From positions 248,001 through 312,000 of the forward strand of contig NZ_JACJGB010000001.1 of assembly GCF_014164775.1 (NCBI RefSeq): DNA of 64,000 bases, given 5' to 3'. This document shows, one piece after another, positions 20,867-36,030 of this stretch (positions within the stretch are counted from its first letter, which is position 1; the number at the start of each line of letters is the position of its first letter). The notes under the pieces are model-generated. The model was not told where the DNA came from. It made no database searches and worked only from the letters and a program-made list of their open reading frames with translations. A program made the translations under genes and the position numbers. This DNA comes from Tessaracoccus sp. MC1679 (GTDB lineage: Bacteria > Actinomycetota > Actinomycetes > Propionibacteriales > Propionibacteriaceae).

Positions 20867-20880
20867 GGTACGAAAGTACC
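20867..20880. promoter_or_regulatory. Candidate response-regulator operator, site A
   Basis: GGTACGAAAGTACC, a palindrome of the form GGTAC-N4-GTACC within a larger GGGAGGGTAC...GTACCTTCCC dyad. Its centre lies 52 bp from the -10-like TAGGAT (20923-20928) of the histidine kinase gene, which appears leaderless at GTG 20935. Five related sites occur upstream of the other genes of this locus. Confidence 0.65.
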
Positions 20881-20934
20881 TTCCCGCGCTCCTCGGCTGG
20901 TCAGGCGAGCGTTGCCGACCCATAGGATGACGGC

Positions 20935-22017
20935 GTGGGACGGAAAGCACTCTCGAGCGGCGCGCTGGAGGTCCTCATCGCGCTCGTGATCATCACGGCC
21001 GAGCTCCTCGCGCCCCGAGCGCGGATGGTCCTGACTCCTGAGGTCGTGGCACTCGACATCGCCGCGTTCGTCACGGTGGTGGTCGCGGTCCGGTGGCCGC
21101 AGGTCGGCGCGGCATTGACCATCACCCTGGCCGTCGCGGCGGCCGCAATCGACGAAAACTCCCTCGGCTTCTGGCCCTACCTCCTCATGCTCCCTGTCGT
21201 CGCCGCCTTACGGAACGGGCGATGGGCCCAGGCAGCGGTGATGGCAGCAACCGTGTTCACGGCGTCGGTGACCGCCACGGCTCGCCAGCTCGCGGAGGAC
21301 TTCAATCCCTTCGAGGTGATCCTCGGGTGGTTCGCGCTGGACGCCGTGTTCGTGCTCGTCGGATTCGGCCTCAACGCCGTCTCGCGCAACGCCGCCGAGG
21401 CCGAGTCCAGGCGCCAGCGGGACCTCAGGCTCCAAGCCACCCTCGACCTCCACGACTCGGTGGCCCGCGAGCTCACTCTCATCGCGATGGAGGCCGACGC
21501 CGCGCACAACGCGGGCGGAGCATCTCCGGAGGCGCTGGCCGCACTGTCCGAGCGGGCCCGCAACGCTGGGGCCGCCCTCCGCGACACCATCCGCATGATG
21601 CAGCTGGGAGAGAGCGCGCCGACGGACGCGGACTTCCGGGAGACCTTGGCGCAGGAGGTCCGCGAGCTCAAGCGTCGCGGCCACGAGGTGACCACCTCCG
21701 GAGACCTCAGCCCCACACTGCATGCGTCCATCGACCGCGCGCTAGCGCAGATCCTCCGCGAGGCGCTCCACAACGTGGCCAAACACGGCCTGAAGCACGG
21801 GCCCTGCACGATCGTGGGCGAGCTGTCCGCCGTCGACTACCAGCTGATCGTCACCAACCAGATGCCGCCTGATCGGACGACCGGCGCGGGCCTCGGCACG
21901 CTCGGCATGCGCCACCGCGCCACGCTCGCCGGCGGTAGTCTCCGGCTGGCATCCGCGAACGGCACCTGGACGTGCCTGGTGGAGATGCCGCTGACCGTGC
22001 GGCAATTGCAGACATGA
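20935..22017 (+). CDS. NarL-family sensor histidine kinase (system 1)
   Basis: A 360-aa sensor. Five or so TM helices fill residues 10-150, with almost no outside domain, so the signal is probably sensed in the membrane or via partner proteins. The HisKA_3 motif LDLHDSVARELTLIAMEADA carries the phosphorylated His, and LREALHNVAKHG plus GLGTLGMRHRA are the N and G boxes of the ATPase. The start GTG 20935 follows TAGGAT by 7 nt, fitting a leaderless mRNA. Its stop overlaps the response regulator start (ATGA). Confidence 0.92.
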   Translation: MGRKALSSGALEVLIALVIITAELLAPRARMVLTPEVVALDIAAFVTVVVAVRWPQVGAALTITLAVAAAAIDENSLGFWPYLLMLPVVAALRNGRWAQAAVMAATVFTASVTATARQLAEDFNPFEVILGWFALDAVFVLVGFGLNAVSRNAAEAESRRQRDLRLQATLDLHDSVARELTLIAMEADAAHNAGGASPEALAALSERARNAGAALRDTIRMMQLGESAPTDADFRETLAQEVRELKRRGHEVTTSGDLSPTLHASIDRALAQILREALHNVAKHGLKHGPCTIVGELSAVDYQLIVTNQMPPDRTTGAGLGTLGMRHRATLAGGSLRLASANGTWTCLVEMPLTVRQLQT

Positions 22018-22670
22018 TCAGCGTCGGGATCTGCGACGACGACCCGCTCGTCCTGAGCTACCTCGCCGCGACCCTCGCCCGCGTCGACGACATCGCCGTC
22101 GTCCACCAGTGCGCCGGGGGTCACGAGGCATTGGCTGCGCCCCCAGTCGACCTGTGGCTCATGGACATCCGGATGCCCGGTATCTCCGGGGTGGAGACGT
22201 GCCGCGCGCTGACCTCCCGCCCGGACCCGCCGCGGGTCCTGCTGCTCACCAGCCTCAGCACCACGAGTCTCACCGAGGCGGTCGGCGCCGGCGCCTGCGG
22301 CTTTCTCTACAAGGACACCCCGGCCAAGGCGCTCGCCGCGGCCATCCGGACCGCGGACGCCGGGATCTTCGTCCACTCCCCCGACGCGGCGCGGGGGCTG
22401 ACCACCAGGGTGACCAGCCGGGAGTCGGCCCCCGACGGAGTGCTGCGCGACGCCGTCGACCACGAGCTGATCCGCGCCATCAACGCCGGACGCGGCTACG
22501 ACCAGATGGCCGAGGCGCTGGGCATGTCGGTGTCAGGGGTCAAGAAGCGGGTCGGCACCCTCATGAGGCGCGCGGGCGTCAGCAGCCGCCCCCAGCTGAT
22601 GGCACAGTCCGTCTCCTGGTCAACGCAGCCATCGGAGTCGCCCCGCCCGGATAGTCCTGCTCCGTCCTAG
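22014..22670 (+). CDS. NarL/LuxR-type response regulator (system 1)
   Basis: A 218-aa regulator. The receiver starts SVGICDDDPLVLSYL (acidic pocket), with the phospho-acceptor Asp in DLWLMDIRMPG and Lys in FLYKDT. The C-terminal LuxR-type helix-turn-helix is MAEALGMSVSGVKKRVGTLMRRAGVSSRPQLMA. Its recognition helix nearly matches that of the second regulator at 28212-28850 (GMSESGLKKRVAALMKR), so both probably bind the same palindrome. It ends in a 4-bp overlap with the converging lipoprotein gene. Confidence 0.93.
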   Translation: MISVGICDDDPLVLSYLAATLARVDDIAVVHQCAGGHEALAAPPVDLWLMDIRMPGISGVETCRALTSRPDPPRVLLLTSLSTTSLTEAVGAGACGFLYKDTPAKALAAAIRTADAGIFVHSPDAARGLTTRVTSRESAPDGVLRDAVDHELIRAINAGRGYDQMAEALGMSVSGVKKRVGTLMRRAGVSSRPQLMAQSVSWSTQPSESPRPDSPAPS

Positions 22671-23050
22671 TTGACGGTCCAGCGCGGCTTGGTGAGATCG
22701 CACTCTTTGGGGATATGCGTGTCATCGGAGACCTCAGCCGAGGCCGCGGACTCACCGCCGGTCAGTTCAACCGGCCGACCGAGTTCGAAGGTACCTTGCT
22801 CTGTCTCGAGTGCACCCTGGTCAGCCCAACTCGGGGCGCCGCGGAAGACCGGGAGATAGTCGGTCCCATCTTCGGCAGTCAGGTACAGGCAGCCATCGTT
22901 GAGCTGCAGCATCCCGCTGACCAGGGCCGTGGGTCCGCCGTCGTTGAGCGCCCCCTCCCGCCAAGCTACCTCGGGGGCAGCCTGGCTCGCCGTGCAGCCG
23001 AGGCTCAGACCAACCGCAGCCCAAACCAGCCACACCATCAAGTGCTTCAT
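22667..23050 (-). CDS. Small lipoprotein, candidate target of the two-component systems
   Basis: A 127-aa predicted lipoprotein with lipobox LSLGC at residues 15-19. The mature part contains GMLQLNDGCLYLT and ends in HIPKECDLTKPRWTVN, so two conserved-looking Cys remain. It resembles the lipoprotein at 37965-38375 in the order of these motifs (GTLEVVGGCL ... VPAKCAEHD). ATG 23050 lies 7 nt after a TATGTA -10 box, suggesting a leaderless start, with operator site B about 51 bp from that box. Function unknown. Confidence 0.8.
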   Translation of the reverse strand: MKHLMVWLVWAAVGLSLGCTASQAAPEVAWREGALNDGGPTALVSGMLQLNDGCLYLTAEDGTDYLPVFRGAPSWADQGALETEQGTFELGRPVELTGGESAASAEVSDDTHIPKECDLTKPRWTVN

Positions 23051-23103
23051 ACCGCCTACATATACGCTGCGGCCCGTCGCCGAACAGAAGCGGGACCCCA
23101 GAG

Positions 23104-23117
23104 GGTACTTATGTGCC
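23104..23117. promoter_or_regulatory. Candidate response-regulator operator, site B
   Basis: GGTACTTATGTGCC matches GGTAC-N4-GTACC with one mismatch. It is centred about 51 bp from the -10-like hexamer (23057-23062) of the lipoprotein gene on the minus strand; on the other side cbiD begins 150 bp away. Confidence 0.55.
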
Positions 23118-23224
23118 CACCCATGAGTCCGCGCTACCTGTTCTTCTGCACACTGCAAGGCAGGGAGCGACGCTCGGTCCGACCCCGGCCCACTCACGAT
23201 GGCGCTCCCGGCTACGCTGGCTAC

Positions 23225-23266
23225 GTGCCCGTCACCGCCCCTCACCCTGTGACTCGAGGCTGCTGA
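23225..23266 (+). CDS. Possible 13-codon leader ORF before cbiD
   Basis: GTG 23225 opens a 13-codon frame (VPVTAPHPVTRGC) whose TGA ends one base before the cbiD ATG. TACGCT lies upstream as a -10 box. It may only be a translational-coupling device or chance; weak evidence. Confidence 0.25.
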   Translation: MPVTAPHPVTRGC

Positions 23267-23267
23267 G

Positions 23268-24362
23268 ATGGCGCGCCGCGGGCAACTCGACGACTCCTCG
23301 CTCCGGCCCGGCTGGACCACCGGCGCCTGCGCCACCGCCGCCGCGACGGCCGCCTACGAGGCCCTGCTCACCGGGGAGTTCCCGGACCCCGTAGAGATCG
23401 AGCTACCCCAGGGCCGCCGGCCGTCGTTTGCCTTAACCCTCGAGCATGTGACCGACGGTGTCGCGATGGCCGCCGTCACCAAGGACGCCGGCGACGACCC
23501 CGACGTCACGCACGGCGCCCTCGTCCGCGCCTGGGTGCGCCCGGGCCCGTCGGGCTCGGGCGTGCGGCTCCTCGGTGGCCCCGGCGTCGGCACCGTCACG
23601 CTGCCCGGGCTCCCGCTCCCTGTGGGCGAGCCGGCCATCAACCCCGCACCCCGGGCGATGATCAGGGCGAACCTCTCCGCCGTCGCCCGCCGACACGGCG
23701 TGCCCCTCGACCTCGAGGTGACCATCGGGGTCGACGACGGCGAGGCCCTCGCGCGGCACACGTGGAACCCGCGCATCGGCATCCTGGGCGGGATCTCCAT
23801 CCTCGGCACCACCGGCGTCGTGGTCCCCTACTCGTGCTCCGCGTGGATCGACTCGATCCGCCGCGGCGTCGACGTCGCCCGCGCCGCCGGCATGCAGCAC
23901 CTGGCCGCCTGTACCGGGTCGACGTCGGAGCGCGTCGTCGCAGAGCTGTATGGCCTGCCAGAGCTGGCGCTGCTGGACATGGGCGACTTCGCCGGCGCCG
24001 TGCTCAAGTACGTCTCCCGGCACCCCGTCGAACGCCTCACGATTTGCGGAGGGTTCGCCAAGCTCACCAAGCTCGCCGCCGGACACCTCGACCTGCACTC
24101 CCACCGCACCCAGGTGGACCTGTCCCACCTCGCGGGCCTGGCCATCGAGGCAGGCGCCGGAGAGGCGCTCGCCACGGCGATCCGTGCCGCCAACACCGCG
24201 GCAGAGGCCCTCGACCTGGCCGAGGCAGACGGCATCCCGCTGGGCGACGCCGTCGCCACCGCGGCCCGCGATCACGCCCTCACCGTCCTGCGCGGCTCTC
24301 CCGTGGCGGTCGACGTCATCTGCATCGATCGGGGCGGCGCCATCGTCGGCAACTCGGCTTGA
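23268..24362 (+). CDS. cbiD: Cobalt-precorrin-5B C1-methyltransferase
   Basis: A 364-aa CbiD, which methylates C1 of cobalt-precorrin-5B and is specific to the anaerobic pathway. The N-terminal LRPGWTTGACATAAATAAY, the central NPRIGILGGISILGTTGVVVPYS and the GDFAGAVLKY plus ICGGFAKLTKLAAGHLDLHS segments are characteristic. It stands alone between the two-component region and the efflux module, with no riboswitch visible upstream. Confidence 0.96.
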   Translation: MARRGQLDDSSLRPGWTTGACATAAATAAYEALLTGEFPDPVEIELPQGRRPSFALTLEHVTDGVAMAAVTKDAGDDPDVTHGALVRAWVRPGPSGSGVRLLGGPGVGTVTLPGLPLPVGEPAINPAPRAMIRANLSAVARRHGVPLDLEVTIGVDDGEALARHTWNPRIGILGGISILGTTGVVVPYSCSAWIDSIRRGVDVARAAGMQHLAACTGSTSERVVAELYGLPELALLDMGDFAGAVLKYVSRHPVERLTICGGFAKLTKLAAGHLDLHSHRTQVDLSHLAGLAIEAGAGEALATAIRAANTAAEALDLAEADGIPLGDAVATAARDHALTVLRGSPVAVDVICIDRGGAIVGNSA

Positions 24363-24422
24363 TGAGGGATGCGGCACGCCGGTCCGGTGAATGTCGGGGA
24401 TGAGCGCAGACGTTTCAGGGTC

Positions 24423-24563
24423 CTACCGCCTCAGGTTCTTGAGTCCCTCCCCTACGATCTCGAGCCGCTCCACAGCCGAGCGCCGCAACTCATCACGCAG
24501 ATAGCCGTCGAGATCCAAAACACGTGCAACTTCCTCACGGTCGAGGTGGGGGCTTAGATTCAT
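24423..24563 (-). CDS. Small helical protein after the permease gene (tentative)
   Basis: A 46-aa frame (MNLSPHLDREEVARVLDLDG onward, ending EGLKNLRR) that starts 22 nt after the permease stop. The amphipathic, charged composition is protein-like. The ribosome site is weak (GGGAG), and I know no homologue, so this could be chance coding potential. Confidence 0.35.
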   Translation of the reverse strand: MNLSPHLDREEVARVLDLDGYLRDELRRSAVERLEIVGEGLKNLRR

Positions 24564-24585
24564 GGGCTCCCGGTCTATCGCCGGC

Positions 24586-25656
24586 TCACCTGTCCTTGAG
24601 CTGCTCATGAAGGCCGCCCCGCAGCGCGAGCGGAACCAAGGCTACCCCGAGTGCCCACCCGGACGCGGCGGCCGCACCGATGGCGAGGAGACCTGCACCC
24701 AACGTCGCCGCGACGCCGGTCGGCGGGACGGCCTGCAGCGACACGGCCACTGCGAGCGCGGCGACGGTGGCGGCGCAGGCGAGAATCACCGACGGCACGA
24801 GGACCAGGGCCACCTCCCCCAACGCGAGGAACATGAGCTCCGCGCGGCTGCTGCCGAAGGTGCGGTAAACCGCGAGCTCTGGGCGCCTGCCCCAGTTGGT
24901 GAGCAGGACAAGCAACCCGATCAGCACGCCCGCCACCAGACCCGGGGCCAGGCCCGCGTATCGTTGCCACTGCTCGTGAGGGCTGAGGAGGGCCGAGTCG
25001 TCGACGGCGAACGGGCTGACCGCCACGCCGTGCCCTGCGAAAGAGAAATCGAGCAGGTCGCGACCCGCCTCGAACGCCCCAGGGTCCATCCGCACCCAAC
25101 ACTCGCTCATCGCGAAATCGGGCGGGCGCGTCACCACCACATTGGCCAGGAGCCGGGCCGGCTTCACCGAGTCTGGCGTCCGTGCGTCGATGCGATGCGA
25201 GTTGCCCTCACCGTCGTAGAGCACCATTCCCACGGCAGCCAGCCCGGTGTCGGCGAGGTCTGATCCTGCAACAACTTCTCCAGGTGGCTCGGCAACCGCC
25301 CAGGCAGCCCAGATTCCGGGGGTGGCGACATCGACGGTCACCCCCCGCGCCCCTGAGAACGCATGCCACTCACGCTGCTCCTGCCCGACGGCCCCGGCGC
25401 CGATCACCCCGGGCTGACCGTTGAGTTGGGCGCAGAGTCTGGCCGGCACCGGCTGCCCATCCGAATCGGCCTGAATCCACCAGACAGTTCCTCCACGGAC
25501 CAACTCACCGTCGTGCTGGTTGAGGACGCTCGAAGCGGACATGACGGTGGCAACCCCGCACATGGCGAGCACTGCGGCTGTGACCACTGCCAGCACAGCA
25601 TGCCGGGGACCGAGGTTTCGGAATGCCTCGCGCAGCAGAAGACCCGGATGCCACAC
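24586..25656 (-). CDS. ABC transporter permease (module 1)
   Basis: A 356-aa FtsX/MacB-like permease. One TM helix near the N-terminus (about residues 20-42) is followed by a 190-residue extracytoplasmic domain and three TM helices (about 240-260, 285-310, 320-345). It begins 3 nt after the ATPase gene stops. With the membrane-fusion protein and ATPase it forms a tripartite MacB-like machine of the kind used in Gram-positives to expel or resist peptides; the substrate is not known. Confidence 0.85.
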   Translation of the reverse strand: MWHPGLLLREAFRNLGPRHAVLAVVTAAVLAMCGVATVMSASSVLNQHDGELVRGGTVWWIQADSDGQPVPARLCAQLNGQPGVIGAGAVGQEQREWHAFSGARGVTVDVATPGIWAAWAVAEPPGEVVAGSDLADTGLAAVGMVLYDGEGNSHRIDARTPDSVKPARLLANVVVTRPPDFAMSECWVRMDPGAFEAGRDLLDFSFAGHGVAVSPFAVDDSALLSPHEQWQRYAGLAPGLVAGVLIGLLVLLTNWGRRPELAVYRTFGSSRAELMFLALGEVALVLVPSVILACAATVAALAVAVSLQAVPPTGVAATLGAGLLAIGAAAASGWALGVALVPLALRGGLHEQLKDR

Positions 25657-25659
25657 AGT

Positions 25660-26304
25660 TCAGCCTTCCTCCAGGGATCCGTCGGGCCGGATCCGCACGA
25701 TCCGGTCCGCCATCGCCCCGATGCGCTCATCGTGGGTGGCCAGGAGCACCGCCGTGTGGCCGGCCGTCGCGAACAGCGCCTCCGCCACCACGTCCGCGGT
25801 GCGGGCGTCGAGGTTCGCAGTCGGCTCGTCGGCAAGCAGCAGGCTGGGGCGGGAGATCAAGGCGCGGGCGACAGCAACGCGCTGCGCCTCGCCTCCGGAG
25901 AGCGTTCGCGCATCTCGTTGATCCGATGGATCCAGCCCGACGCTGAGCAGCAACTCGCTGGCCGTGGCATCGGCGGTGCCCGACGTGGAGCCCGCGGCCA
26001 GCGCAGGGAGCGCTACGTTGTCCAGAGCACTTCGCCGTGGTAACAGGTTGACGCTCTGGAGGATCCACGCGATCCGCAGCCGATGGCGATCCTGCACCGA
26101 GCACGCGATCCCATCGATCTGCACCCGCCCCGTCGTGGGAGCCGCGAGAAGACCCGCGACGTTGAGAAGTGTTGTCTTGCCCCTCCCTGAGGCCCCCATC
26201 AGGGCTACCGACTCCCCTGATGCAACCGTCAGATTCACCCCGTCCAGCACGGCCCGGTCTGCCCCCGCGTACCTGAACGCCACGTCGACCAGCCTCAGGG
26301 ACAT
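25660..26304 (-). CDS. ABC transporter ATPase, MacB/LolD-like (module 1)
   Basis: A 214-aa ATPase. Walker A is GASGRGKTT, where Arg replaces the usual Ser/Cys of GxSGSGK; the same change is seen in the paralogue at 32542-33189. The signature is LSGGEAQRVAVARAL and Walker B LLLADEPTANLD. It overlaps the end of the membrane-fusion gene by 10 bp. Confidence 0.92.
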   Translation of the reverse strand: MSLRLVDVAFRYAGADRAVLDGVNLTVASGESVALMGASGRGKTTLLNVAGLLAAPTTGRVQIDGIACSVQDRHRLRIAWILQSVNLLPRRSALDNVALPALAAGSTSGTADATASELLLSVGLDPSDQRDARTLSGGEAQRVAVARALISRPSLLLADEPTANLDARTADVVAEALFATAGHTAVLLATHDERIGAMADRIVRIRPDGSLEEG

Positions 26305-27395
26305 TCAGCCTCCGGTACGACCTCCAAGGGATTGACCAGCACCCGAGCGCCCTCGCCCAGCTCAGGTGCGATCAGGGCGCTGCCGTCGACCGCCGAGCCG
26401 ATCAACGTCACTGCCGCAGGACTGTGGTCACCGGCCAGCAGAACGCAAGACGCACCTGACGGGTCCAGCACCAACGCCGCCGGGGGCACTGCCTGCCCGG
26501 GCTCCGGATCGGTCAATGCCACTCTGCCATCCACCGTCACACTCCCCGTCGTGTCCGAGGGGGGAGTGGTCTCCTCCTCGACGGCGCCCTCGGCATCAGA
26601 AGTTGCGCCAGGTTTCGGATCCAGCAGTGCGGCCAACGCGGCTTCGTCGACAAGCGTCCAAGCCCCCTCGCTCAACGTGACATCGTACGAACTGCCCAGG
26701 TAGGAGAACCGGTACGCTCCATCCGGCCCACCGCCCTCCACTTCAAACTTCAGACCCTCGACGGTCGTCACTCCGTCGAGGAAGGCCGCACCGGGGGCCG
26801 GCGCCGGCTGCCCGACGCGCAGGGCGACGGACGCGACGCGGTATGTGTCGGTTGGGAGCATTAGGAACCACCGCGGATCCAACACTCCGGTGGGCGTCGT
26901 CCCGAGCGATTTCTCGTAGGCGCGCACGGCCGAGGCCGTTGCACTCCCGAAGGTGCCCGACACAGACAGTGATGCACCGGGGACGAGAACGTTGAGAAGT
27001 TCCTGGGCCACCTTCACGTCGGCACCCTTGTCTCCCCGCGACAGTGACCTGAACAGTGCAGTGCCGGCGGTGTAGGCACGCAGCGTCACCCCGTCGACAT
27101 CCACGATTGCGCTGCCCGTTCCCAACTCATCCGAGCTCCCGGCATGGACAGCGGTGACAGTGCCCGCCGAGCCGTTCCACAGCACCGGCTCCGGCGCGAC
27201 CCTGCGACCCGTCAGCGACGCCGCAGACGAGTAGTCGAGTTGCGCCTCGCGGACCTCGACAACCACCGGTACCGGCGGTGCATCGAGCGCCGCCAACTGA
27301 CCGCGAAGCGCCAGTGCCAGCCAGGCGCCCGCGCCGATCAAGACCGCCACCGCGATGAACACGGTGACGGGGTACAACCACGACCGACGCCTCAC
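26295..27395 (-). CDS. Peptidoglycan-binding membrane-fusion (adaptor) protein (module 1)
   Basis: A 366-aa adaptor. Residues about 8-28 are a TM anchor. A split lipoyl/barrel-sandwich region flanks a peptidoglycan-binding domain (LSRGDKGADVKVAQELLNVL, then GTFGSATASAVRAYEKSLGTTPTGVLD). An acidic, low-complexity stretch near residues 260-285 (EGAVEEETTPPSDTTGS) precedes the C-terminal barrel. GTG 27395 overlaps the upstream lipoprotein stop (GTGA), so the longer frame is rejected. It probably links the permease to the cell wall. Confidence 0.85.
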   Translation of the reverse strand: MRRRSWLYPVTVFIAVAVLIGAGAWLALALRGQLAALDAPPVPVVVEVREAQLDYSSAASLTGRRVAPEPVLWNGSAGTVTAVHAGSSDELGTGSAIVDVDGVTLRAYTAGTALFRSLSRGDKGADVKVAQELLNVLVPGASLSVSGTFGSATASAVRAYEKSLGTTPTGVLDPRWFLMLPTDTYRVASVALRVGQPAPAPGAAFLDGVTTVEGLKFEVEGGGPDGAYRFSYLGSSYDVTLSEGAWTLVDEAALAALLDPKPGATSDAEGAVEEETTPPSDTTGSVTVDGRVALTDPEPGQAVPPAALVLDPSGASCVLLAGDHSPAAVTLIGSAVDGSALIAPELGEGARVLVNPLEVVPEAECP

Positions 27396-27907
27396 GGGTT
27401 GTTCGCGTCTCCCTTGGGCCAGACGCCGCGGTAGCGCTCCATGCACGCCATGGCCTCAATCTCCTCTGGGGTGTCCGACAACTGCTCCCAAATGGCCTTG
27501 ACGAAGACCCGCGAATCGTTCGTCCCGGCATCCAACCCTGTGACACCGAGGTCCCCCAGGCACTCCATGAGTTCTCGCATCACCGCTTCACGCTCGCTAC
27601 CCGAGACCCGTTTGGTCTCCTGGTATGCGTTCACAATCTCGTCCATATGCTCCGCATAGCACTCGTTGTAGGCTTCATCGAGCTCAGCGTCACGACCCTG
27701 TGTGTTCTGGATTTCCATGGCGTAGTCGTTCGACAGCTCGCTCCAGTCAACGCGCGCATCGAATCCCTTGGAAACGAGGCAGTCCGCACCTGCCTGCCAC
27801 GCCGCGCGATACTCGGCCTCGGTTGGCGCCTGAGAGTCCGTCGCAGAAGCGGTGCAAGCGCTGAGCAGCAAGACCGCACACGCAGCGGCCGTAATGCGTT
27901 CTAACAT
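27392..27907 (-). CDS. Cys-rich lipoprotein (module 1)
   Basis: A 171-aa lipoprotein with lipobox LLSAC. The mature part is acidic and helical with four further Cys: ADCLVSKGF, YNECYAEHMDEIV, MRELMECLGDLGV and AMACMERYRG. The spacing resembles that of the lipoprotein at 30673-31392, which holds the same place in the second module, so they are likely distant paralogues. Possible role: substrate capture or sensing for the adjacent ABC machine. ATG 27907 overlaps the stop of the 34-codon ORF (ATGTTAG). Confidence 0.82.
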   Translation of the reverse strand: MLERITAAACAVLLLSACTASATDSQAPTEAEYRAAWQAGADCLVSKGFDARVDWSELSNDYAMEIQNTQGRDAELDEAYNECYAEHMDEIVNAYQETKRVSGSEREAVMRELMECLGDLGVTGLDAGTNDSRVFVKAIWEQLSDTPEEIEAMACMERYRGVWPKGDANNP

Positions 27908-28005
27908 GTCAACGATGCCGAGGGGCTGTGCCGTGTCAAGGTGGTTTCGGAGCCCACCACACATCCTGCGGCGACAACGCTGACAACCAAACCCCGAAGC
28001 CCCAT
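27901..28005 (-). CDS. 34-aa lipopeptide-like ORF, first gene of module 1
   Basis: A 34-codon frame with a strong AAGGAG ribosome site 8 nt before ATG 28005. The product begins MGLRGLVVSVVAAGC, a short signal with lipobox VAAGC, and ends in a terminal Cys (SASLTC). Its stop is entangled with the start of the lipoprotein gene. It could be a translational leader, a secreted lipopeptide or a pheromone precursor. No family recognised. Confidence 0.5.
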   Translation of the reverse strand: MGLRGLVVSVVAAGCVVGSETTLTRHSPSASLTC

Positions 28006-28104
28006 GAGCCCCAACTCCTTCGATCGAGTGGGGACGGCGGAAGTCGCCCCACACACAGACCCTGCACGATCCGGGAGATGATTCGCGGGACAACCGCAGA
28101 ACGC

Positions 28105-28139
28105 GGATCGAAAGTACCTGGACACGGTACAGAAGTGCC
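28105..28139. promoter_or_regulatory. Tandem candidate operators, sites C1 and C2
   Basis: GGATCGAAAGTACC (28105-28118) and GGTACAGAAGTGCC (28126-28139) each match GGTAC-N4-GTACC with one or two changes. Their centres are exactly 21 bp (two helical turns) apart. C1 lies about 50 bp from a CAGGGT -10-like box (28059-28064) that would drive the module 1 operon on the minus strand. Confidence 0.65.
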
Positions 28140-28211
28140 GTGAATCAGGCCGGTGTGCTCCTTGTGCATCACGGTTGCGATCCGCGCCATCCACTGCAGG
28201 CCGGCACTCTC

Positions 28212-28850
28212 CTACCGCCCGAGGTCCAGGTCTCGGAGCTTGGCCATGAGTTGGGGGCGCGAGTGGACGTCCAGGCGTTTCATGAGCGCCGCGACACGCT
28301 TCTTCAGCCCGGACTCGGACATGCCAACACGCGGAGCAATCTGCGCGTACGTCTTGCCCGTCATCACCTCGTCCGCGATCCTCCGCTCGTCCGCGGCCAG
28401 GTCGGGAACCTCGACCGGGAGACGGGGCGAGGCGGCGTCGCGTGACCGGGGGATGATGACCGCGGCTTGCGGAGATTGAACCTGGAACCCCGCTGCTGCG
28501 GCCCGGACAGCGGTGTGGAGCCGTTCCGGCTGTTCGTCCTTGAACAGGTAGCCCGAGGCTCCTGCCCGGTACGCCTCGGAGACCGTCTCCGAGGTGGAGG
28601 CTGTCAGGATCAGCACGCGGGGCGCATCCGTGCCGGCAGTCAGGACGGCACACGCCTGGATACCGGTCATCTCCGGCATGCGTTGGTCCATCAGCCACAC
28701 ATCAACCGGCTCATCGACAGCGATGGCTTCGTCCCCGGAGCGGCAGACCGCAACCACGACAAGGTCGTCCGCGCGGCCGATGACATCGGCGACCAGCCTA
28801 AGGACCAGCGGGTCGTCATCACAGACGCCCACCCTATCATGCGACGCCAC
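28212..28850 (-). CDS. NarL/LuxR-type response regulator (system 2)
   Basis: A 212-aa regulator paralogous to that of system 1. Receiver motifs: RVGVCDDDPLVLRLV, phospho-Asp in DVWLMDQRMPEM, and YLFKDE. The LuxR-type DNA-binding domain has IAPRVGMSESGLKKRVAALMKRLDVHSRPQLMA. GTG 28850 overlaps the kinase end and has AGGA upstream; GTG 28832 is also possible. Directly downstream lie the tandem operators and the module 1 operon, the obvious target. Confidence 0.92.
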   Translation of the reverse strand: MASHDRVGVCDDDPLVLRLVADVIGRADDLVVVAVCRSGDEAIAVDEPVDVWLMDQRMPEMTGIQACAVLTAGTDAPRVLILTASTSETVSEAYRAGASGYLFKDEQPERLHTAVRAAAAGFQVQSPQAAVIIPRSRDAASPRLPVEVPDLAADERRIADEVMTGKTYAQIAPRVGMSESGLKKRVAALMKRLDVHSRPQLMAKLRDLDLGR

Positions 28851-29943
28851 TGCGGGTGTCCTGCACGAGCGGAAGACTGGCCTCAAGTACCCACACGCCG
28901 TGGGAAAGGCCAGCCGACACCAAGCCCCCTCGCGCCCGCGCCTGGTTCCCCATGCTCTCCAGCCCCAGCCCCGAGTGGCCGCCCGCTGCCCCGGCGCGGG
29001 GTGTGTTGGTCACCGCGAAATCAAGGGCATCGTCGGTGGCCTCGACCATGATCAAGCACGGCCCGTCGGGGTTCCCGTGCTTGGCCACGTTGTGCAGCCC
29101 CTCCAGCATGATCCGGCCCGCCGCGTGATCCACCGCGGTGCGGAGTGGAGCGTCCACCTCGATGCTCACCCGAACCTCGAACCCGAGCCTCTCCAACTCA
29201 GCACGCCCCACATCCACCGCCATAGACAAACCCGTGTCCCGCTCGGGGGCTGCGGGCCGACCCCCCAGCAGCTGCATGGTTCGACGGATCGCGACACTCG
29301 CCTCGCGCGCCATCTGCGCCATCGACTCCAACTGCTCCGGAGTGGCCGAACCCGCCACAACGGCAGCATCCGCCTGCATGGCCAGAACAGCAAGATTCCG
29401 TGCGGTCGAATCATGCAGGTCCCGGGCCAGGTCAAGAGCACGCTCCTGGTAGTCACGGTGCACGCGCTCCTCGGCTACCCTCGCGAGCGCGCGACCCGCG
29501 AACCCGACCGCCCACACCAGCCCGTACGTGAACAGCCAGGTGATCGTGATCCCGATCAGGTCCCTGTCGTCCGGGTGAACCCGATAACTCACCCACCACC
29601 CCGCGGCACCCCCGATTGCCGTCGCAGCACCCGCCAGTCCGATCCGGCCAAGCCGGATCGCCGTCACGGTCGGCAGCGCGCACAGATACAAAGCCATTCC
29701 CGAACCGTCAGGATCCAGCCAGAGAACGACAGCCAGCCCGGGCAGCAGAAGGCCGATCCCCAACCCCAGCCAGCGCAGAGCGACAAGCGCCAGCACCAGC
29801 GCCAGCACATCCGCCGCCAACGCAGACACAGAGATCCGGCCGCCCACGAACGCAAAGAACGAAGCCGCAATCATCAGCAGCGCGACGGCTGACTCAGCCC
29901 CGCCCCACGCCAGCAGGCGATTCACCACCATTGCACGCTTCAC
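28837..29943 (-). CDS. NarL-family sensor histidine kinase (system 2)
   Basis: A 368-aa sensor with about five TM helices in residues 10-165 and little outside sequence. The HisKA_3 motif is LDLARDLHDSTARNLAVLAM, and the ATPase has LEGLHNVAKHG and GLGLESMGNQARA. It is paralogous to the kinase at 20935-22017. GTG 29943 follows a TAGGGT -10 box by 9 nt; GTG 29949 and ATG 29931 are alternatives. Operator site E lies about 40 bp from that -10, one helical turn closer than in the other promoters, suggesting autoregulation. Confidence 0.9.
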   Translation of the reverse strand: MKRAMVVNRLLAWGGAESAVALLMIAASFFAFVGGRISVSALAADVLALVLALVALRWLGLGIGLLLPGLAVVLWLDPDGSGMALYLCALPTVTAIRLGRIGLAGAATAIGGAAGWWVSYRVHPDDRDLIGITITWLFTYGLVWAVGFAGRALARVAEERVHRDYQERALDLARDLHDSTARNLAVLAMQADAAVVAGSATPEQLESMAQMAREASVAIRRTMQLLGGRPAAPERDTGLSMAVDVGRAELERLGFEVRVSIEVDAPLRTAVDHAAGRIMLEGLHNVAKHGNPDGPCLIMVEATDDALDFAVTNTPRAGAAGGHSGLGLESMGNQARARGGLVSAGLSHGVWVLEASLPLVQDTRSGVA

Positions 29944-29987
29944 GAGCACCCACCCTAGGACGCCCACAACTCCGACACCCGCAAGAA

Positions 29988-30001
29988 GGATCTTTCGTAC
30001 C
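29988..30001. promoter_or_regulatory. Candidate response-regulator operator, site E
   Basis: GGATCTTTCGTACC (reverse complement GGTACGAAAGATCC) lies between the divergent kinase 2 gene and the 41-codon peptide gene. It is centred about 40 bp from the kinase -10 and about 72 bp from the peptide -10 (TCTACT). Confidence 0.55.
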
Positions 30002-30077
30002 CAATCCGGGCACGAATGAACCCACCCACACCCCACGGGCGCCTACATCCGCCGGGACCCCTGTCTACTTGGGCAGC

Positions 30078-30203
30078 ATGCCGATCATGGTCTCGCTCCT
30101 CGCACTGCTACTCCTCATCGTCGCCCCCGCCGAGGCGCCTTCGCCAGCCGGGGCCGAGGCCCGGGACATCTGCACGGTCTTCCCCTGGTACCCGGGCTGC
30201 TGA
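30078..30203 (+). CDS. 41-aa pre-peptide with Cys-bracketed C-terminus
   Basis: ATG 30078 opens a 41-codon frame. MPIMVSLLALLLLIVAPAEA is a textbook signal peptide with AEA as a likely cleavage site. The mature tail is about 21 residues and ends ICTVFPWYPGC, where two Cys bracket an aromatic/Pro loop. TCTACT (30064-30069) would make ATG 30078 leaderless, like neighbouring genes. The position, back to back with a membrane-embedded histidine kinase and sharing site E, suggests a secreted signal or antimicrobial peptide. No known family; size means chance cannot be excluded. Confidence 0.55.
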   Translation: MPIMVSLLALLLLIVAPAEAPSPAGAEARDICTVFPWYPGC

Positions 30204-30305
30204 CCGAGGTCAGCCCTCAAACGCCGAGAGAAGCCATGCCCATATGAGTGATACTCGCGCACCTGAAGCAGATCATGCGGGGCCCAGCATTCAAAGGTTC
30301 ACGAA

Positions 30306-30319
30306 GGTACTTAAGTACC
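30306..30319. promoter_or_regulatory. Candidate response-regulator operator, site D
   Basis: GGTACTTAAGTACC is a perfect palindrome and the best match to the shared motif. It is centred 51 bp from TTAGTG (30361-30366), the -10-like box for the secreted-protein gene at 30375. Confidence 0.7.
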
Positions 30320-30374
30320 CTGAGGCGTGCAGCCGCCTATTGAAGCAGTCGTTCCACGTGTTAGTGTCCGACAC

Positions 30375-30695
30375 ATGCACAGAAGACATTTCGCGACGGC
30401 ATTGACATTCATCGCCGCTCTCTCACTGTCCGTTGCTGCACCACTGTCCGCCGGTGCCGCGACGGAATCAGGAATCACACCGACGTGTGTTGCCGGGGCG
30501 CGGCCTCTTGTGCGGGGAGAGCAGACGAGTCTCAATACCCTCCGTGTCGACATGCCCAGTGGCACAATTCGTCACAACAACGCGACAAAATACTACCTCG
30601 CCTATCAGCATCCAACCATGACCCGCGCTTCATGGTACGCGTCGTCCATCTCCTTGAAGGACTCAGGAACGTATGGTATTTGCGCGCCGGTCTAG
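30375..30695 (+). CDS. Small secreted protein, first gene of module 2
   Basis: A 106-aa protein with a clear signal peptide (residues 1-28, ALSLSVAAPLSAGAA). The mature 78 residues contain two Cys (TPTCVAG, and YGICAPV at the very end) that could form one disulfide closing the chain, plus a Tyr/Ser-rich middle (KYYLAYQH, RASWYASSIS). Size and context recall secreted bacteriocins, but there is no match to lactococcin 972 or other families that I recognise. ATG 30375 sits about 9 nt after the -10 box. Confidence 0.75.
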   Translation: MHRRHFATALTFIAALSLSVAAPLSAGAATESGITPTCVAGARPLVRGEQTSLNTLRVDMPSGTIRHNNATKYYLAYQHPTMTRASWYASSISLKDSGTYGICAPV

Positions 30696-31392
30696 TTCCA
30701 TCGCGGCTGCGCTGCTGGCAGTTCTTGGTCTCTGCGGATGTGTTGCGCAGGAACCGGTTGCTGCCGCTTCCAGCTCGTCGGCGCCCGTCTTCGACCGCAA
30801 TGAGCCTTGGGCGCCTTATCAGAACATCACTCTCCCGCCGATGACAATGGAGCAGAAGCTGGAGTTCCGGCAGCAGTGGCTCGATGCGGAGTGGCAATCC
30901 GTTGTGCAGCAATGGCCAGAGCTGGCAGACGAGGATGCACGCCCGACGGTGGAACTGGTCTCGTTCGGGGATCCCCTCGGCGGAGATGAATTCTTGGCAC
31001 AGTGTTTCACAGATGCTGGATACCCGGCCGTCGCGGAGGAGGGTGGAGTCAGTTTCCCGGGCGGGGTCCAGGCGTCGCCACAGTATGGCCTGGCACATTA
31101 CGTCTGCTACTCGAAATTCACGCCCGATCCGCTGATGCTTCGCGATTGGAACGATGATCAACTCGGTCTCCTGTGGGAGTATCTGACTCAGTGGCGCAAT
31201 CCTTGCCTGGAATCCTTTGGGCTTGTCACCAGTGAAGGTCCGGACCGCGCGTCGTTTATCAACGAGTTTTTCACAGACGGCTCCGAAGCCCGCGCTTGGG
31301 CATTCAGCGACCCCACCGTCGGATCCGACAACCGAGACGACATTCTAGCGGCGTGCCCCTCGCTCCCACGGGAACACTTCTATGGCTCCTGA
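30673..31392 (+). CDS. Cys-rich lipoprotein (module 2)
   Basis: A 239-aa lipoprotein with lipobox GLCGC. The mature protein has FLAQCFTDAGYPA, YVCYSKFTPDP, NPCLESFGLV and ILAACPSLP, giving a four-Cys pattern like the module 1 lipoprotein. It starts inside the end of the small secreted gene (23-bp overlap, AGGA upstream) and overlaps the adaptor gene by 11 bp, so expression of the module is tightly linked. Function unknown. Confidence 0.85.
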   Translation: MVFARRSSSIAAALLAVLGLCGCVAQEPVAAASSSSAPVFDRNEPWAPYQNITLPPMTMEQKLEFRQQWLDAEWQSVVQQWPELADEDARPTVELVSFGDPLGGDEFLAQCFTDAGYPAVAEEGGVSFPGGVQASPQYGLAHYVCYSKFTPDPLMLRDWNDDQLGLLWEYLTQWRNPCLESFGLVTSEGPDRASFINEFFTDGSEARAWAFSDPTVGSDNRDDILAACPSLPREHFYGS

Positions 31393-32545
31393 CATCGCCA
31401 CATCCGACACGGCTCCGCCAGGTCCGCCTCGCCGATGGCCAGTGATTCTGGGCGGTGCCCTGCTGCTGGCCACCGCGGCCTTCTGGGCGGGAAGGGTCAC
31501 CCTGACTCCACCGCCCGGGTTACTTGAGACTGCGGACGAGGATCTGGTGGTCACGGTGACCGAGCGCACGATCGGCCAAACCCTCGACTACGGTGCCCGA
31601 ACATCCCGCGCATCCCGAACCATCGCCACCAACGCTCTGGCTGGGGTCGTCACGGCGGCGCCGGACCAGCCGGTGGCTGTCCGCGCCGTCGGCGACGTGC
31701 TCTACGAAGTGGGGGGCATTCCAGTGCGCATCGTCGAAGGAGAGGTACCGTTCCACCGCGATCTGTCCCTGGGCGTGGCCGGCCGTGACGTGGAGCAGTT
31801 GGAGGGCGCGCTCGTCGCTCTGAAATACCTCGACGTGGCAGACTCCACCTTCGACGAGGCCACCGGCCGCGGCGTGTCCGAGTGGCAGCGCAACCTCGGC
31901 GTCGCCCCTACAGGAATGGTGGGCCTCGGAGAGCTGGTCGCCGCCGACTCACTGCCCGCCGGCGTTGTGGTCGACGCGCAACAGGTGTGGGCGGGGGCTG
32001 TGCTGGGCGGCGGCGAGGTGGCCGTCTCGATGACGACAGGCGACCCTCAGTTCATCCTCCCGTTGTCACCCGGACAGATGAGCCTGGTCCCAACGGACGC
32101 GCCGATGACGGTCGAGGGTCTCGGGCACAGCTGGCCCGCGGTATGGGGGGCGAGCCGGCCCAACGACGAGCTGGGCGCGGGCGAACTCGTGACGTTGACC
32201 AGCCCGGACGGCGGGCCGGTGTGCGGAGACGACTGTGACGCCGTGCCTGCCGAGCAAATGTGGGTGACGGTGCACATCGAGGTAATCCCCAGGACCACCG
32301 GCCCCACGGTCCCGGTGGCCGCCGTCTCTACCGACGCCACCGGGCAGGCCTGGGTGACCGTGGTCGACGGCAACGCGCGCGAACGCAGACCCGTGACGGT
32401 CAGCAGGTCGCACGCGGGGCTCGCCGTCGTCGAGGGAGTCGAGGTAGGCGAGTCCGTACAGGCCCTCGCCTCGGCCGACGTCACACCCGAGGCGTCAGCC
32501 ACAGCGACGTCCTCCGCGAGGCCGTCACCGAGCGAGACTCCGTGA
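31382..32545 (+). CDS. Peptidoglycan-binding membrane-fusion (adaptor) protein (module 2)
   Basis: A 387-aa adaptor. TM anchor at about residues 20-40 (WPVILGGALLLATAAFWAG), then barrel-sandwich and a peptidoglycan-binding domain (LSLGVAGRDVEQLEGALVAL, ATGRGVSEWQRNLGVAPTGMV). The C-terminal RND-type barrel includes TVPVAAVSTDATGQAWVTVV, then a Ser/Thr/Pro tail. Paralogue of the protein at 26295-27395 with the same partners. It ends in a GTGA overlap with the ATPase gene. Confidence 0.9.
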   Translation: MAPDIATSDTAPPGPPRRWPVILGGALLLATAAFWAGRVTLTPPPGLLETADEDLVVTVTERTIGQTLDYGARTSRASRTIATNALAGVVTAAPDQPVAVRAVGDVLYEVGGIPVRIVEGEVPFHRDLSLGVAGRDVEQLEGALVALKYLDVADSTFDEATGRGVSEWQRNLGVAPTGMVGLGELVAADSLPAGVVVDAQQVWAGAVLGGGEVAVSMTTGDPQFILPLSPGQMSLVPTDAPMTVEGLGHSWPAVWGASRPNDELGAGELVTLTSPDGGPVCGDDCDAVPAEQMWVTVHIEVIPRTTGPTVPVAAVSTDATGQAWVTVVDGNARERRPVTVSRSHAGLAVVEGVEVGESVQALASADVTPEASATATSSARPSPSETP

Positions 32546-33189
32546 CATCGGTGCTCTCCGTGTCCGGGCTGCGGTTCACCTATCCGAGGGGACGCGAGCC
32601 GGTCCTCGTCGATGTGTCGGCCGAGTTCGACGCCGGCGAGACGGTTGCGCTGACGGGCCCCAGCGGACGCGGGAAGTCCACCCTCCTCTACCTACTCGGG
32701 CTGCTGCTCACGTCGGACGAGGGTGAGGTGGAAGTGCACGGACGGCCCACCTCCACGCTCAACGACGCCCAGCGCTCCACCATGCGCGCCCGCCACATGG
32801 GCTTCGTGTTCCAGGACGCTGAGCTCGACCCCGCCCGCACCGTCCTGGATTCAGTGGTTGAACCCGCCCTGTACGCCGGCCACCGCAGGAGGGATGTCAT
32901 CGCCAGAGCGGGAGAACTGCTCGGCGCGTTCGGCGTGGAAGCCCGCGCTGATCACCTCCCGGGGCAGATCAGCGGCGGCCAGGCGCAGCGGGTGGCGCTG
33001 TGCCGGGCGCTGATGAACCGCCCCACGATCCTGCTGGCGGACGAGCCCACTGGCAACCTCGACCGCACCAACGCGGAGAACGTCTTGGACCGCCTCGTCG
33101 GGGCCGCCAAGGACGAGTCCGTGGCGCTGATCATCGCCACGCACGACCCCTTCGTCATCTCCCGGGTCGACAGGGTGGTCGAGCTGTGA
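32542..33189 (+). CDS. ABC transporter ATPase, MacB/LolD-like (module 2)
   Basis: A 215-aa ATPase with Walker A GPSGRGKST (the Arg again in place of Ser), Q-loop GFVFQDAELDPARTV, signature ISGGQAQRVALCRAL and Walker B ILLADEPTGNLD. GTG 32542 overlaps the adaptor stop, which fixes the start within a longer open frame. It pairs with the permease that follows through another GTGA overlap. Confidence 0.93.
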   Translation: MTSVLSVSGLRFTYPRGREPVLVDVSAEFDAGETVALTGPSGRGKSTLLYLLGLLLTSDEGEVEVHGRPTSTLNDAQRSTMRARHMGFVFQDAELDPARTVLDSVVEPALYAGHRRRDVIARAGELLGAFGVEARADHLPGQISGGQAQRVALCRALMNRPTILLADEPTGNLDRTNAENVLDRLVGAAKDESVALIIATHDPFVISRVDRVVEL

Positions 33190-34280
33190 GGGCGGTCTCG
33201 CTTCTCCGGGAGGCCGTTGCCTCCGCGATGGCTGCCCGGGTCCCCACGATCCTCATCCTGCTGGCTGCGGCCGCAATGACCTTCGCCGCAGCCGCCACCT
33301 CCGGGCGCGGGGCGGCCCTGCAGGAGCAGTTGGAGCAGCGCCTGGAGGACGCCGGCGCTCGCGTAATCGCGGTCACCGATCAGGGCTCCGATGGGTTCCT
33401 CACCCCCGAAGCGGTCAGCGTCATCGCGGACCTCTCCAGCGTCGACACCGTCGCAGCGGTGACCAAGGCGTCCACGGTCACCAACGCCGCCCTCGGCTGG
33501 GGCGGGCCGACGGTGAGCGTTTGGGGCCTCGTCGGTACCAGCCCCGACGACGTGGTCACCCTCCGCGCCGGCCGTTGGCCCGAGCCTGGTGAGGCGATCG
33601 TCTCGGCCACCTCGGGCGCCACCCTCAGGATGGAGGCCCCGTCGGGGGCACTAGTCACGAGGGACAACCACACCTACGCCGTCGTCGGCACCTACGACGC
33701 GGCAGCCCCGTTCGACTGGCTCCGCGACGGCGCCATCTATGTTTCCGCGACACCCGGGGTTGGTGAGCAGGCACGAGTCATCGTCGACGATGTGGGTCAA
33801 CTGGGCCCCACCGAACGCGGTCTCCGGAGGTTGCTGGCGCCCACCGACCCCGCGAACCTGGGCCTCTCCTCCCCACGGGACCTCGCCGAGACCTCCCAAC
33901 TGGTGGGCGGGGACGTCCGGTTGGCCGGCTACGAGACCACCCTCATCGTCCTGCTCGTCGGCGCGCTGTTCGTGGGCGCCGTCGCCCTGGCCGACGTGCT
34001 CATCCGGCAACGCGACCTCGGCCGGCGGCGAGCCCTCGGCATCACCCGCGTCGACCTCATGAGCCTGATCGTTCTTCGCGCCGCGCTGTCCACCACCGCC
34101 GGCGCGGTGCTGGGCATCGTCGCGGTCACGGCCTTCGGCACGGCCACGGAAACCATCGCTCCGCTCGGGCATACCGCCGCCACCGCCACCCTCGTGGTCG
34201 TGGCGGCCCTCGTCGCGACGGTGCCCGCAGGCATGGTGGCCGCGCACCGCGACCCCGTGGCGGTACTCCGAACGGCCTGA
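33186..34280 (+). CDS. ABC transporter permease, FtsX/MacB-like (module 2)
   Basis: A 364-aa permease. N-terminal TM helix (about residues 15-35), a MacB-type extracytoplasmic domain of about 200 residues, then three TM helices (about 250-275, 295-320, 330-350) with an FtsX-like loop (RQRDLGRRRALGITRVDLM). The protein ends VAAHRDPVAVLRTA, the usual FtsX tail. GTG 33186 lies in the GTGA overlap with the ATPase. Confidence 0.92.
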   Translation: MRAVSLLREAVASAMAARVPTILILLAAAAMTFAAAATSGRGAALQEQLEQRLEDAGARVIAVTDQGSDGFLTPEAVSVIADLSSVDTVAAVTKASTVTNAALGWGGPTVSVWGLVGTSPDDVVTLRAGRWPEPGEAIVSATSGATLRMEAPSGALVTRDNHTYAVVGTYDAAAPFDWLRDGAIYVSATPGVGEQARVIVDDVGQLGPTERGLRRLLAPTDPANLGLSSPRDLAETSQLVGGDVRLAGYETTLIVLLVGALFVGAVALADVLIRQRDLGRRRALGITRVDLMSLIVLRAALSTTAGAVLGIVAVTAFGTATETIAPLGHTAATATLVVVAALVATVPAGMVAAHRDPVAVLRTA

Positions 34281-35571: not shown

Positions 35572-35631
35572 CCACCGGGCAGAGCGACCATCCGCGGCGG
35601 GGTGGACCCCTCTGTGGAGTACCTTCGCGGT

Positions 35632-36030
35632 ATGGAGAGCATGATTCGCAACACCAGGATATGGATTCTGGTGCTTCTCGCGATCGCCGGACTGGCGATC
35701 GTCCCCAGCTCGGCGTTCGCGGAGACACGGGCGTCCTGGTGCGGTTCGTACTGGTTCCGGGATTTACCCGTGAAGCTCAGAATCGTCAACTGCTCAGTCA
35801 TGACTCCGAGCGCCAAGTACACCTCCTCGGTTCAGACAATCGGCTACGTGGCAGCGGTGGGTCAGTCCCCGTACTGGATGAGAGTCGAGTTGCGAACCTC
35901 TGCCAACGTCCTCGTGGGTACCACATCTGATGCCGGCCAGATCGAGGTTGCAGATGTCACTGCCTCGCACAAGGCCGTGTGCCAAAACGCCTCCGGATAC
36001 TCGAATGCCATTCAATGCGGCGTTGTCTGA
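35632..36030 (+). CDS. Small secreted protein
   Basis: A 132-aa protein with a signal peptide (ILVLLAIAGLAIVPSSAFAE, cleavage after AFA). The mature part has four Cys (SWCGSYW, IVNCSVM, KAVCQNAS, IQCGVV) and a central MRVELRTSANVLVGTTSDAG segment. TACCTT (35620-35625) would place ATG 35632 at a leaderless start. It overlaps the next lipoprotein gene by 16 bp, the same secreted-protein-then-lipoprotein order as in module 2. Confidence 0.75.
   Translation: MESMIRNTRIWILVLLAIAGLAIVPSSAFAETRASWCGSYWFRDLPVKLRIVNCSVMTPSAKYTSSVQTIGYVAAVGQSPYWMRVELRTSANVLVGTTSDAGQIEVADVTASHKAVCQNASGYSNAIQCGVV

Follow-up and report, generated by a model that had tools for sequence, protein, structure and literature searches.

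In Tessaracoccus sp. MC1679, a 64,000-nt stretch of contig NZ_JACJGB010000001.1 (positions 248,001 to 312,000; hereafter the window) contains a locus of ~9.5 kb in which the palindrome GGTAC-N4-GTACC and its near copies lie around two two-component systems and two ABC-transporter modules. The source genome comprises 3.57 Mb in 17 contigs, and the locus makes up 0.26% of it. An alpha/beta hydrolase gene is followed by the genes of kinase 1 and regulator 1; next come lipoprotein 1, encoded on the opposite strand, cbiD (our reading) and then the modules. Module 1, on the minus strand, encodes lipoprotein 2, a HlyD-like adaptor with a peptidoglycan-binding domain, an ABC ATPase and an FtsX-type permease, and lies behind kinase 2 and regulator 2. 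Module 2, which runs divergently from kinase 2 on the plus strand, encodes a small secreted protein, lipoprotein 3, a HlyD-like adaptor, an ATPase and a permease. The genes are:

20935..22017, plus strand, sensor kinase 1 (HisKA_3; Pfam PF07730, E 1.1e-5); N-terminal part hydrophobic by hydropathy, no other domain recognised there
22014..22670, plus strand, response regulator 1 (RR1), NarL/LuxR type (PF00072, E 4.6e-17)
22667..23050, minus strand, lipoprotein 1; signal peptide with Cys read from the translation
24586..27446, minus strand, module 1 without lipoprotein 2 (Pfam)
24586-25656, minus strand, FtsX-type permease of module 1 (Pfam FtsX match below its cut-off)
25660-26304, minus strand, ABC ATPase of module 1 (Pfam)
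26295-27446, minus strand, HlyD-like protein with PG_binding_1 of module 1 (Pfam; "HlyD-like" is our reading)
27392..27907, minus strand, lipoprotein 2, leading gene of module 1; start MLERITAAACAVLLLSAC read from the translation
28212..28886, minus strand, response regulator 2 (RR2), NarL/LuxR type (PF00072, E 3.7e-20; PF00196, E 1.5e-5); coordinates of the longest open frame
28837..29943, minus strand, sensor kinase 2 (HisKA_3; PF07730, E 3.9e-8); predicted leaderless GTG at 29943, longest frame to 30036
30375..30695, plus strand, small secreted protein, leading gene of module 2; signal peptide read from the translation
30673..34280, plus strand, module 2 without the secreted protein (translation and Pfam)
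30673-31392, plus strand, lipoprotein 3 of module 2 (translation and Pfam)
31382-32545, plus strand, HlyD-like protein with PG_binding_1 of module 2 (Pfam)
about 32536-33189, plus strand, ABC ATPase of module 2 (Pfam)
33201-34280, plus strand, FtsX permease of module 2 (Pfam)

Both regulators were assigned to the NarL/FixJ group. RR2 passed the cut-offs of PF00072 and PF00196 and RR1 that of PF00072; RR1 had no GerE match, yet its helix-turn-helix aligns with those of NarL, ChrA and DevR. Moreover, each regulator adjoins a HisKA_3 kinase, both kinases passing the PF07730 cut-off, and Pfam recognised no sensor domain in either of them. An RR2 that is 97% identical was found in a metagenome-assembled genome labelled Propionibacteriaceae, and one that is 50% identical in an uncultured Arachnia. 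Both ATPases and permease 2 passed their Pfam cut-offs, whereas permease 1 fell below that of FtsX. In the adaptors of both modules Pfam found PG_binding_1 only and no HlyD/MacA family, and the family search for lipoprotein 1 gave nothing above the cut-off.

Seven candidate operators were placed in this locus:

20867..20880, plus strand, O1 at the kinase 1 promoter: GGTACGAAAGTACC, centre at -61.5 from the GTG; identical 14-mer at the same promoter in G036 and G018
23104..23117, minus strand, O2 of lipoprotein 1: GGCACATAAGTACC on the minus strand, about -60.5 from the ATG
28105..28118, minus strand, O3, proximal box of the module 1 tandem pair (mismatch scan)
28126..28139, minus strand, O4, distal box of the module 1 pair, 21 bp from O3
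29988..30001, minus strand, O5 of kinase 2: GGTACGAAAGATCC on the minus strand, -51.5 from the GTG; G044 counterpart GGTACGAAAGACCC also at -51.5
30009..30022, minus strand, O6, distal box of kinase 2: GGTTCATTCGTGCC on the minus strand, 21 bp from O5, at -72.5
30306..30319, plus strand, O7 of the secreted protein: GGTACTTAAGTACC, -62.5 from the ATG

Here and below, other genomes are cited by G numbers, contigs by C numbers and loci by L numbers. The original prediction had counted six copies of the palindrome, but only two of them (20867 and 30306) are exact. These are the only exact copies in the window, where the mean expected number was 0.00 and none of 100 shuffles contained two. The remaining four carry one mismatch (23104, GGTACTTATGTGCC; 28126, GGTACAGAAGTGCC) or two (28105, GGATCGAAAGTACC; 29988, GGATCTTTCGTACC). 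In addition, the earlier list lacked the seventh, weaker box at 30009, which has two mismatches and stands 21 bp from 29988, the same spacing as that between 28105 and 28126; its counterpart in G044 has three mismatches and lies 22 bp from its partner. Because the window is barely above chance at up to two mismatches (18.1 matches expected and 26 found, a number attained in 3 of 100 shuffles), the two-mismatch copies mean little by themselves and must be carried by position and conservation. All sites are intergenic, as had been claimed, provided that 23050 and 29943 are the starts of lipoprotein 1 and kinase 2; their longest open frames, which extend to 23335 and 30036, would take in 23104 and 29988/30009, respectively.

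Genome-wide, the exact palindrome occurred four times, twice at the locus, and the backward control three times. With up to one mismatch there were 51 matches (backward control, 127), four of them at the locus against 0.12 expected (Poisson P about 9e-6, a descriptive value because the locus was picked for the motif). When the full 14-mers were scanned, with two mismatches allowed, GGTACGAAAGTACC was found at six places (four at the locus) and GGTACTTAAGTACC at five (three at the locus). Their union comprises nine places, five of which lie within 9.5 kb; after the two seed sites, both from the locus, were dropped, three of seven were still there. A motif equally common in unrelated regions, the outcome named in advance as speaking against the regulon, was not observed in its own genome, where the sites concentrate at the locus.

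Two kinds of site elsewhere deserve mention. In the same genome, GGTACGAAAGTTCC at C11:191109 (L173 at 9610) lies in a ~970-bp gap between genes for a fasciclin-domain lipoprotein and a secreted protein; it showed no leaderless promoter geometry, and it is a possible distant regulon member. Palindromes GGTACCTAGGTACC and GGTACTAAAGTACC, found at or just before integrase-like genes (our reading) in the same genome (C12:239185; L003 at 1501) and in G044 (C3; L170 at 7360 and L171 at 1886), probably represent a separate mobile-element site that confounds genome scans.

The box recurs before related kinases. We scanned 300 bp upstream of 35 kinase genes (the L162 kinase was missed), the starts in relatives being approximate since the gene caller was crude. 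A box with at most one mismatch was found upstream of six: window kinase 1 and the kinases of G036, G018, G011 C77, G022 and G017. The background was 11 exact palindromes in 895 upstream stretches, which is inflated because the set includes module promoters and loci fetched for holding a match. Exact GGTACGAAAGTACC precedes the kinases of G036 (94% identical) and G018 (81%), GGCACGAAAGTACC those of G017 and G022 (39%), and GGTACTCAAGTACC that of G011 C77 (29%). In another genus, exact GGTACGAAAGTACC stands ~63-65 bp before the kinases of G134 (28%) and G127 (32%). The two-mismatch forms GGTACGAAAGATCC and GGTACGAAAGACCC precede window kinase 2, its G036 copy and the G044 kinase, and the second G022 pair and G011 C44 share GATACGAAAGTGTC, which has three mismatches to the palindrome and keeps the core ACGAAAGT. 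Across 391 genomes of the order, exact GGTACGAAAGTACC occurred at 12 places, in 9 of the 174 genomes of the window's family and in none of the 217 genomes of other families (backward control, one place); five of the 12 copies stand before a related kinase. Two further kinases, in L216 (G035) and L217 (G027), are 43-44% identical to kinase 2, and no regulator gene was recognised beside them.

Neither lipoprotein 1 nor its box is present between regulator 1 and cbiD in G018. G017 has one box before the kinase and one before each of two repeated secreted-protein and lipoprotein units, the second of which leads into adaptor and ATPase genes. In its sister G022 (L156, ~9267), the downstream box abuts what appears by eye to be the 3' end (C-terminus) of an FtsX permease, apparently the scar of a deletion that removed a module and left kinase, regulator and box in place. 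Single one-mismatch matches in other genomes were not taken as regulon members, as about a dozen contexts were mostly unrelated or inside genes.

The box went with one clade of regulators. In a FastTree phylogeny of 42 regulators (the extracted set and BLAST neighbours, without copies of the window's two and the short-contig G132:C202 and G133:C237), a clade of 16 (support 0.966) had the box with 11 members, against 2 of 26 outside it, both from genus g22. The association (Fisher 5.8e-5) is not a true probability because the sequences are related. Within the clade the boxes lie before the kinase, except in G011 C44, where the box is in the divergent gap beside it. Ten loci with related adaptor/ABC/FtsX modules were also compared. 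Seven had no clade regulator, and all seven lacked a G[AG][CT]AC-N4-GT[AG][CT]C box; in one of them (L283) there is a pair farther away, its regulator not belonging to the clade, and in another (L284) a distant kinase-like frame. Among the three with a clade regulator, the box was present in G017 and G011 C44. The palindrome as a property of the module rather than of the regulator was rejected on the basis of the seven boxless loci.

Furthermore, half of the site copies hold a regular position relative to predicted promoters. The -10 elements in the window are:

20923..20928, plus strand, -10 TAGGAT of kinase 1, 6 nt before GTG 20935 (predicted leaderless); TANNNT likewise in G036, G018, G017 and both G022 pairs
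23057..23062, minus strand, -10-like TATGTA of lipoprotein 1 (by eye), 6 nt before the ATG; fails the TANNNT test
29952..29957, minus strand, -10 TAGGGT of kinase 2, 8 nt before the GTG
30362..30367, plus strand, -10 TAGTGT of the module 2 promoter, 7 nt before the ATG

We asked for TANNNT, 5-8 nt and then ATG or GTG, all starts being predicted. Nine of 18 site copies had this geometry, with the centre either between -60.5 and -62.5 (kinase 1 in G036, G018 and the window, the G017 kinase, both G022 pairs and the secreted protein) or at -51.5 (kinase 2 of the window, and G044). At a random position and direction its chance is 0.0006 for -60..-63 and 0.0023 for -50..-63, and none of 12 palindromes tested elsewhere in the same genome showed it. 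Three of the five window promoters qualified: kinase 1 (-61.5), the secreted protein (-62.5) and kinase 2 (-51.5). The distances from box centre to -10 were as originally claimed for kinase 1 (52 bp), the secreted protein (52 bp) and kinase 2 (40 bp). Lipoprotein 1 was a near miss, with TATGTA at ~51 bp by eye and the final T of TANNNT missing, and the ~50 bp given for the module 1 operon could not be confirmed, no convincing -10 having been found there. The position -61.5 is a classic one for class I activators. The best -35 candidates in seven geometry promoters matched TTGACA at only 1-4 of 6 positions, and ~10% of random places reach 4. An activator would suit promoters in which the spacings differ by a helical turn, the -10 is good and the -35 poor. 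In Streptomyces leaderless mRNAs are common, and an excerpt of PMC4681348 gives 264 of them for S. coelicolor.

The recognition helices of the two regulators are nearly identical, as had been stated (RR1, GMSVSGVKKRV; RR2, GMSESGLKKRV). At the residues that we align with DevR Lys182-Asn183, K-K is found in RR1, RR2, G044, G018, G017/G022 and G011 C77, and also in G021, G029 and G032, where no box was found. K-R within VTVKR is found in the second G022 pair and G011 C44, both with the identical GATAC variant noted above, whereas GGTAC/GGCAC half-sites accompany SG/STVKK helices. This covariation of half-site and helix, resting on two GATAC cases, is suggestive only.

Taken together, these comparisons make it very probable that the palindrome is the operator of the encoded NarL-family regulators and marks a local, autoregulated regulon that controls putatively MacAB-like modules and their secreted proteins. 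A signal at the membrane-embedded kinases would lead to phosphorylation of the regulator, which would then bind GGTAC-N4-GTACC as a dimer. From about -61.5, or one helical turn nearer at -51.5, it would activate leaderless TANNNT promoters with at best a poor -35. Its targets would be both kinase/regulator operons (positive autoregulation), lipoprotein 1, and two operons each comprising a secreted protein and/or lipoprotein, a HlyD-like adaptor, an ABC ATPase and an FtsX permease, so that the regulon would be mainly local to the cluster. The modules might serve in envelope stress or against antimicrobial peptides. The original prediction of a two-component regulon marked by this palindrome was thus well supported by clustering, recurrence before related kinases, the clade link, absence from the seven regulator-less modules and geometry in half of the copies, but not in its six exact copies or its module 1 distance; both regulators may, as it proposed, act at all of the sites.

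Several findings weigh against this interpretation. The total genome counts are no higher than those of the backward control (for the full 14-mer scans, 7 strand matches vs 6 and 10 vs 10), so that clustering alone stands out. Near seven of the 12 exact GGTACGAAAGTACC copies in the order (the second G018 copy, G022 C1:570713, G029, G083, G124 and two of three in G134) no relative was recognised by BLAST to the window's proteins. Five of the 16 clade regulators had no box in the scanned stretches; three of their kinases seem to lie behind ABC-transporter genes, and G011 C2 has a clade regulator and a module but no box. The G134 and G127 regulators fall outside the clade yet carry the box, and their helices have K-T with a plain GGTAC box, which breaks a simple helix-operator rule. 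Two kinases of another regulator group (L225 and L232) also carry a two-mismatch box, so that this level alone proves nothing. Finally, nine of the 18 copies fail the geometry test: the two module 1 boxes, two G017 secreted-protein boxes, G011 C77 (TAGGTG at the usual distance by eye), G134 and G127 (GATACT/CATACT with GTG near -70 to -71.5 by eye), lipoprotein 1, and O6, which has the geometry at -72.5 only, as the distal box of the kinase 2 promoter. The G017 secreted-protein promoter may use TTGACA/GATGAT, with the box near -51.5 by eye.

The alternative that survives best is that of two regulons with little cross-talk, in which RR1 would act at single near-perfect boxes at ~-61.5 (kinase 1, lipoprotein 1 and module 2) and RR2 at imperfect boxes that stand in tandem, 21-22 bp apart (kinase 2 and module 1). 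Kinase 2, module 1 and the promoter of the RR2-like G044 system each have a tandem partner with up to three mismatches at 21-22 bp, and none was found at 18-24 bp for window kinase 1, lipoprotein 1 and the secreted protein; a partner at one position has a chance of 0.003, and 14 positions were tried per site. Moreover, the kinase 2 and module 1 boxes have an imperfect GATCC right half in common, and RR1 and RR2 are not sisters in the tree, with weak support on the RR2 side. However, GGTAC is kept in both classes of site, and the nearly identical helices argue for overlapping targets. Module 2 has an RR1-type box though it is divergent from kinase 2, the site before the kinase of the RR1-like regulator of G011 C77 has a partner at 19 bp, and G018 has a three-mismatch partner at 18 bp. 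We lean somewhat against two separate regulons; whether single and tandem boxes may mark a partial division of labour between RR1 and RR2 is, on these sequences, an evenly balanced question.

Repression rather than activation at the boxes is unlikely. Palindromes near promoters would suit repressors too, and the TTGACA read by eye in the G017 secreted-protein promoter would provide a -35, but the centres at -51.5 and -61.5, about one turn apart, lie upstream of a core promoter with a TANNNT -10 and a poor -35. Still less credit is due to an unrelated regulator, for example of a mobile element, that would bind the box and be linked to the two-component systems only indirectly. The similar-outline palindromes at integrase-like genes and the exact copies in the order that lack a recognised relative would agree with such a binder, whereas the box tracks the regulator clade, holds a fixed place before several kinases, varies with the helix in two cases and is missing from the seven modules without the regulator. 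Over-reading of a handful of chance GTAC palindromes, to which the small excess in the window at two mismatches would lend itself, was rejected as scarcely credible in view of genome clustering and the footprint conserved across species.

The proposed two-component regulon can be set beside several known systems. The nearest solved chains to RR1 are ChrA (4yn8, 3.5e-19), DevR (3c3w, 1.2e-16), VraR and DesR. DevR/DosR, the second-best solved relative, belongs to the same regulator family, but the targets in the window differ from those of DevR/DosR, and the window kinases have no recognised sensor domain. We take the Dev-box core to be GGGACTWWAGTCCC, which would resemble the window's GGTACTTAAGTACC with T for G at the third position; the half-site in the window is GGTAC, not the GGGAC of this presumed core or of OsdR, which places the box outside the Dev-box class. 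The consensus of OsdR from Streptomyces is given as AGGGCCGATCGGCCCT in an excerpt of PMC5069765. In excerpts of PMC3029386, DevR binds cooperatively to one, two or more boxes per promoter and its start-proximal site overlaps the -35, unlike the main box in the window at -61.5 or -51.5. The DNA-contacting residues named in an excerpt of PMC4082495 (Lys179, Lys182 and Asn183) align, in our reading, with S, K and K of RR1.

The ChrSA/HrrSA systems of Corynebacterium are also two paralogous two-component systems, and ChrA is the best solved relative of RR1. As described in an excerpt of PMC6850329, a single central site allows ChrA to drive both its own operon and the divergent operon of the hrtBA exporter, and the two pairs cross-phosphorylate. 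The haem-responsive ChrSA is the best working analogy, with positive autoregulation, an induced ABC exporter and a cross-talking paralogue, although the targets in the window add secreted proteins, lipoproteins and a peptidoglycan-binding adaptor to the ChrSA/HrtBA scheme.

MacAB/YknXYZ-type loci, which we presume the modules to resemble, group genes for an adaptor, an ABC ATPase and an FtsX-type permease, an arrangement that the window modules may share; the window modules differ in the PG_binding_1 domain of the adaptor and in the secreted-protein and lipoprotein genes in front. For MacRS we assume the consensus TGAGTACnnGTACTCA, whose spacing and flanks differ from those of the window box. 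An excerpt of PMC9739842 describes MacRS of Streptomyces coelicolor as having a NarL-type regulator whose targets are membrane proteins and lipoproteins and whose binding consensus is established. None of the papers searched, few of which were subscription papers, contained any of five spellings of the motif; other spellings were not tried. The proposed regulon is of a well-known, fairly ordinary kind; its operator sequence is its own and its promoter geometry regular. It supplies a two-component family of Propionibacteriaceae with an operator, the geometry of its promoters and a short list of targets, and it links several uncharacterised secreted proteins, lipoproteins and ABC modules into one response.

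More speculatively, the clade might form a natural specificity series (GGTAC/GGCAC with SG/STVKK, and GATAC with VTVKR in two separate sub-lineages) whose regulators act at -51.5, -61.5 and perhaps ~-70. Two paralogous systems united in one cluster would then share or, by single and tandem boxes, split two secretion modules, possibly through mixed RR1/RR2 dimers; we hold this extended picture to be doubtful. The series of helices and operators could be used to test how NarL-type regulators select their sites, and the paralogous pair in one cluster to test how such systems stay insulated.

Some minor observations concern the neighbouring frames. A short frame at 27901-28005 (the end of the 27901-28698 frame), beginning MGLRGLVVSVVAAGC, lies ahead of and overlaps the start of lipoprotein 2; it is possibly a leader peptide, or a chance frame. 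On the 3' side of module 2, another secreted-protein and lipoprotein pair occupies 35602-36563, and the scan found no box there. The window's secreted protein gave nothing above the cut-off in the family search, PF03995 included. Secreted proteins of L157 (12173-12607), L159 (7944-8426) and L164 (11750-12157) gave weak to marginal matches to peptidase inhibitor family I36 (PF03995), and among these three relatives the L164 protein alone reached the cut-off.

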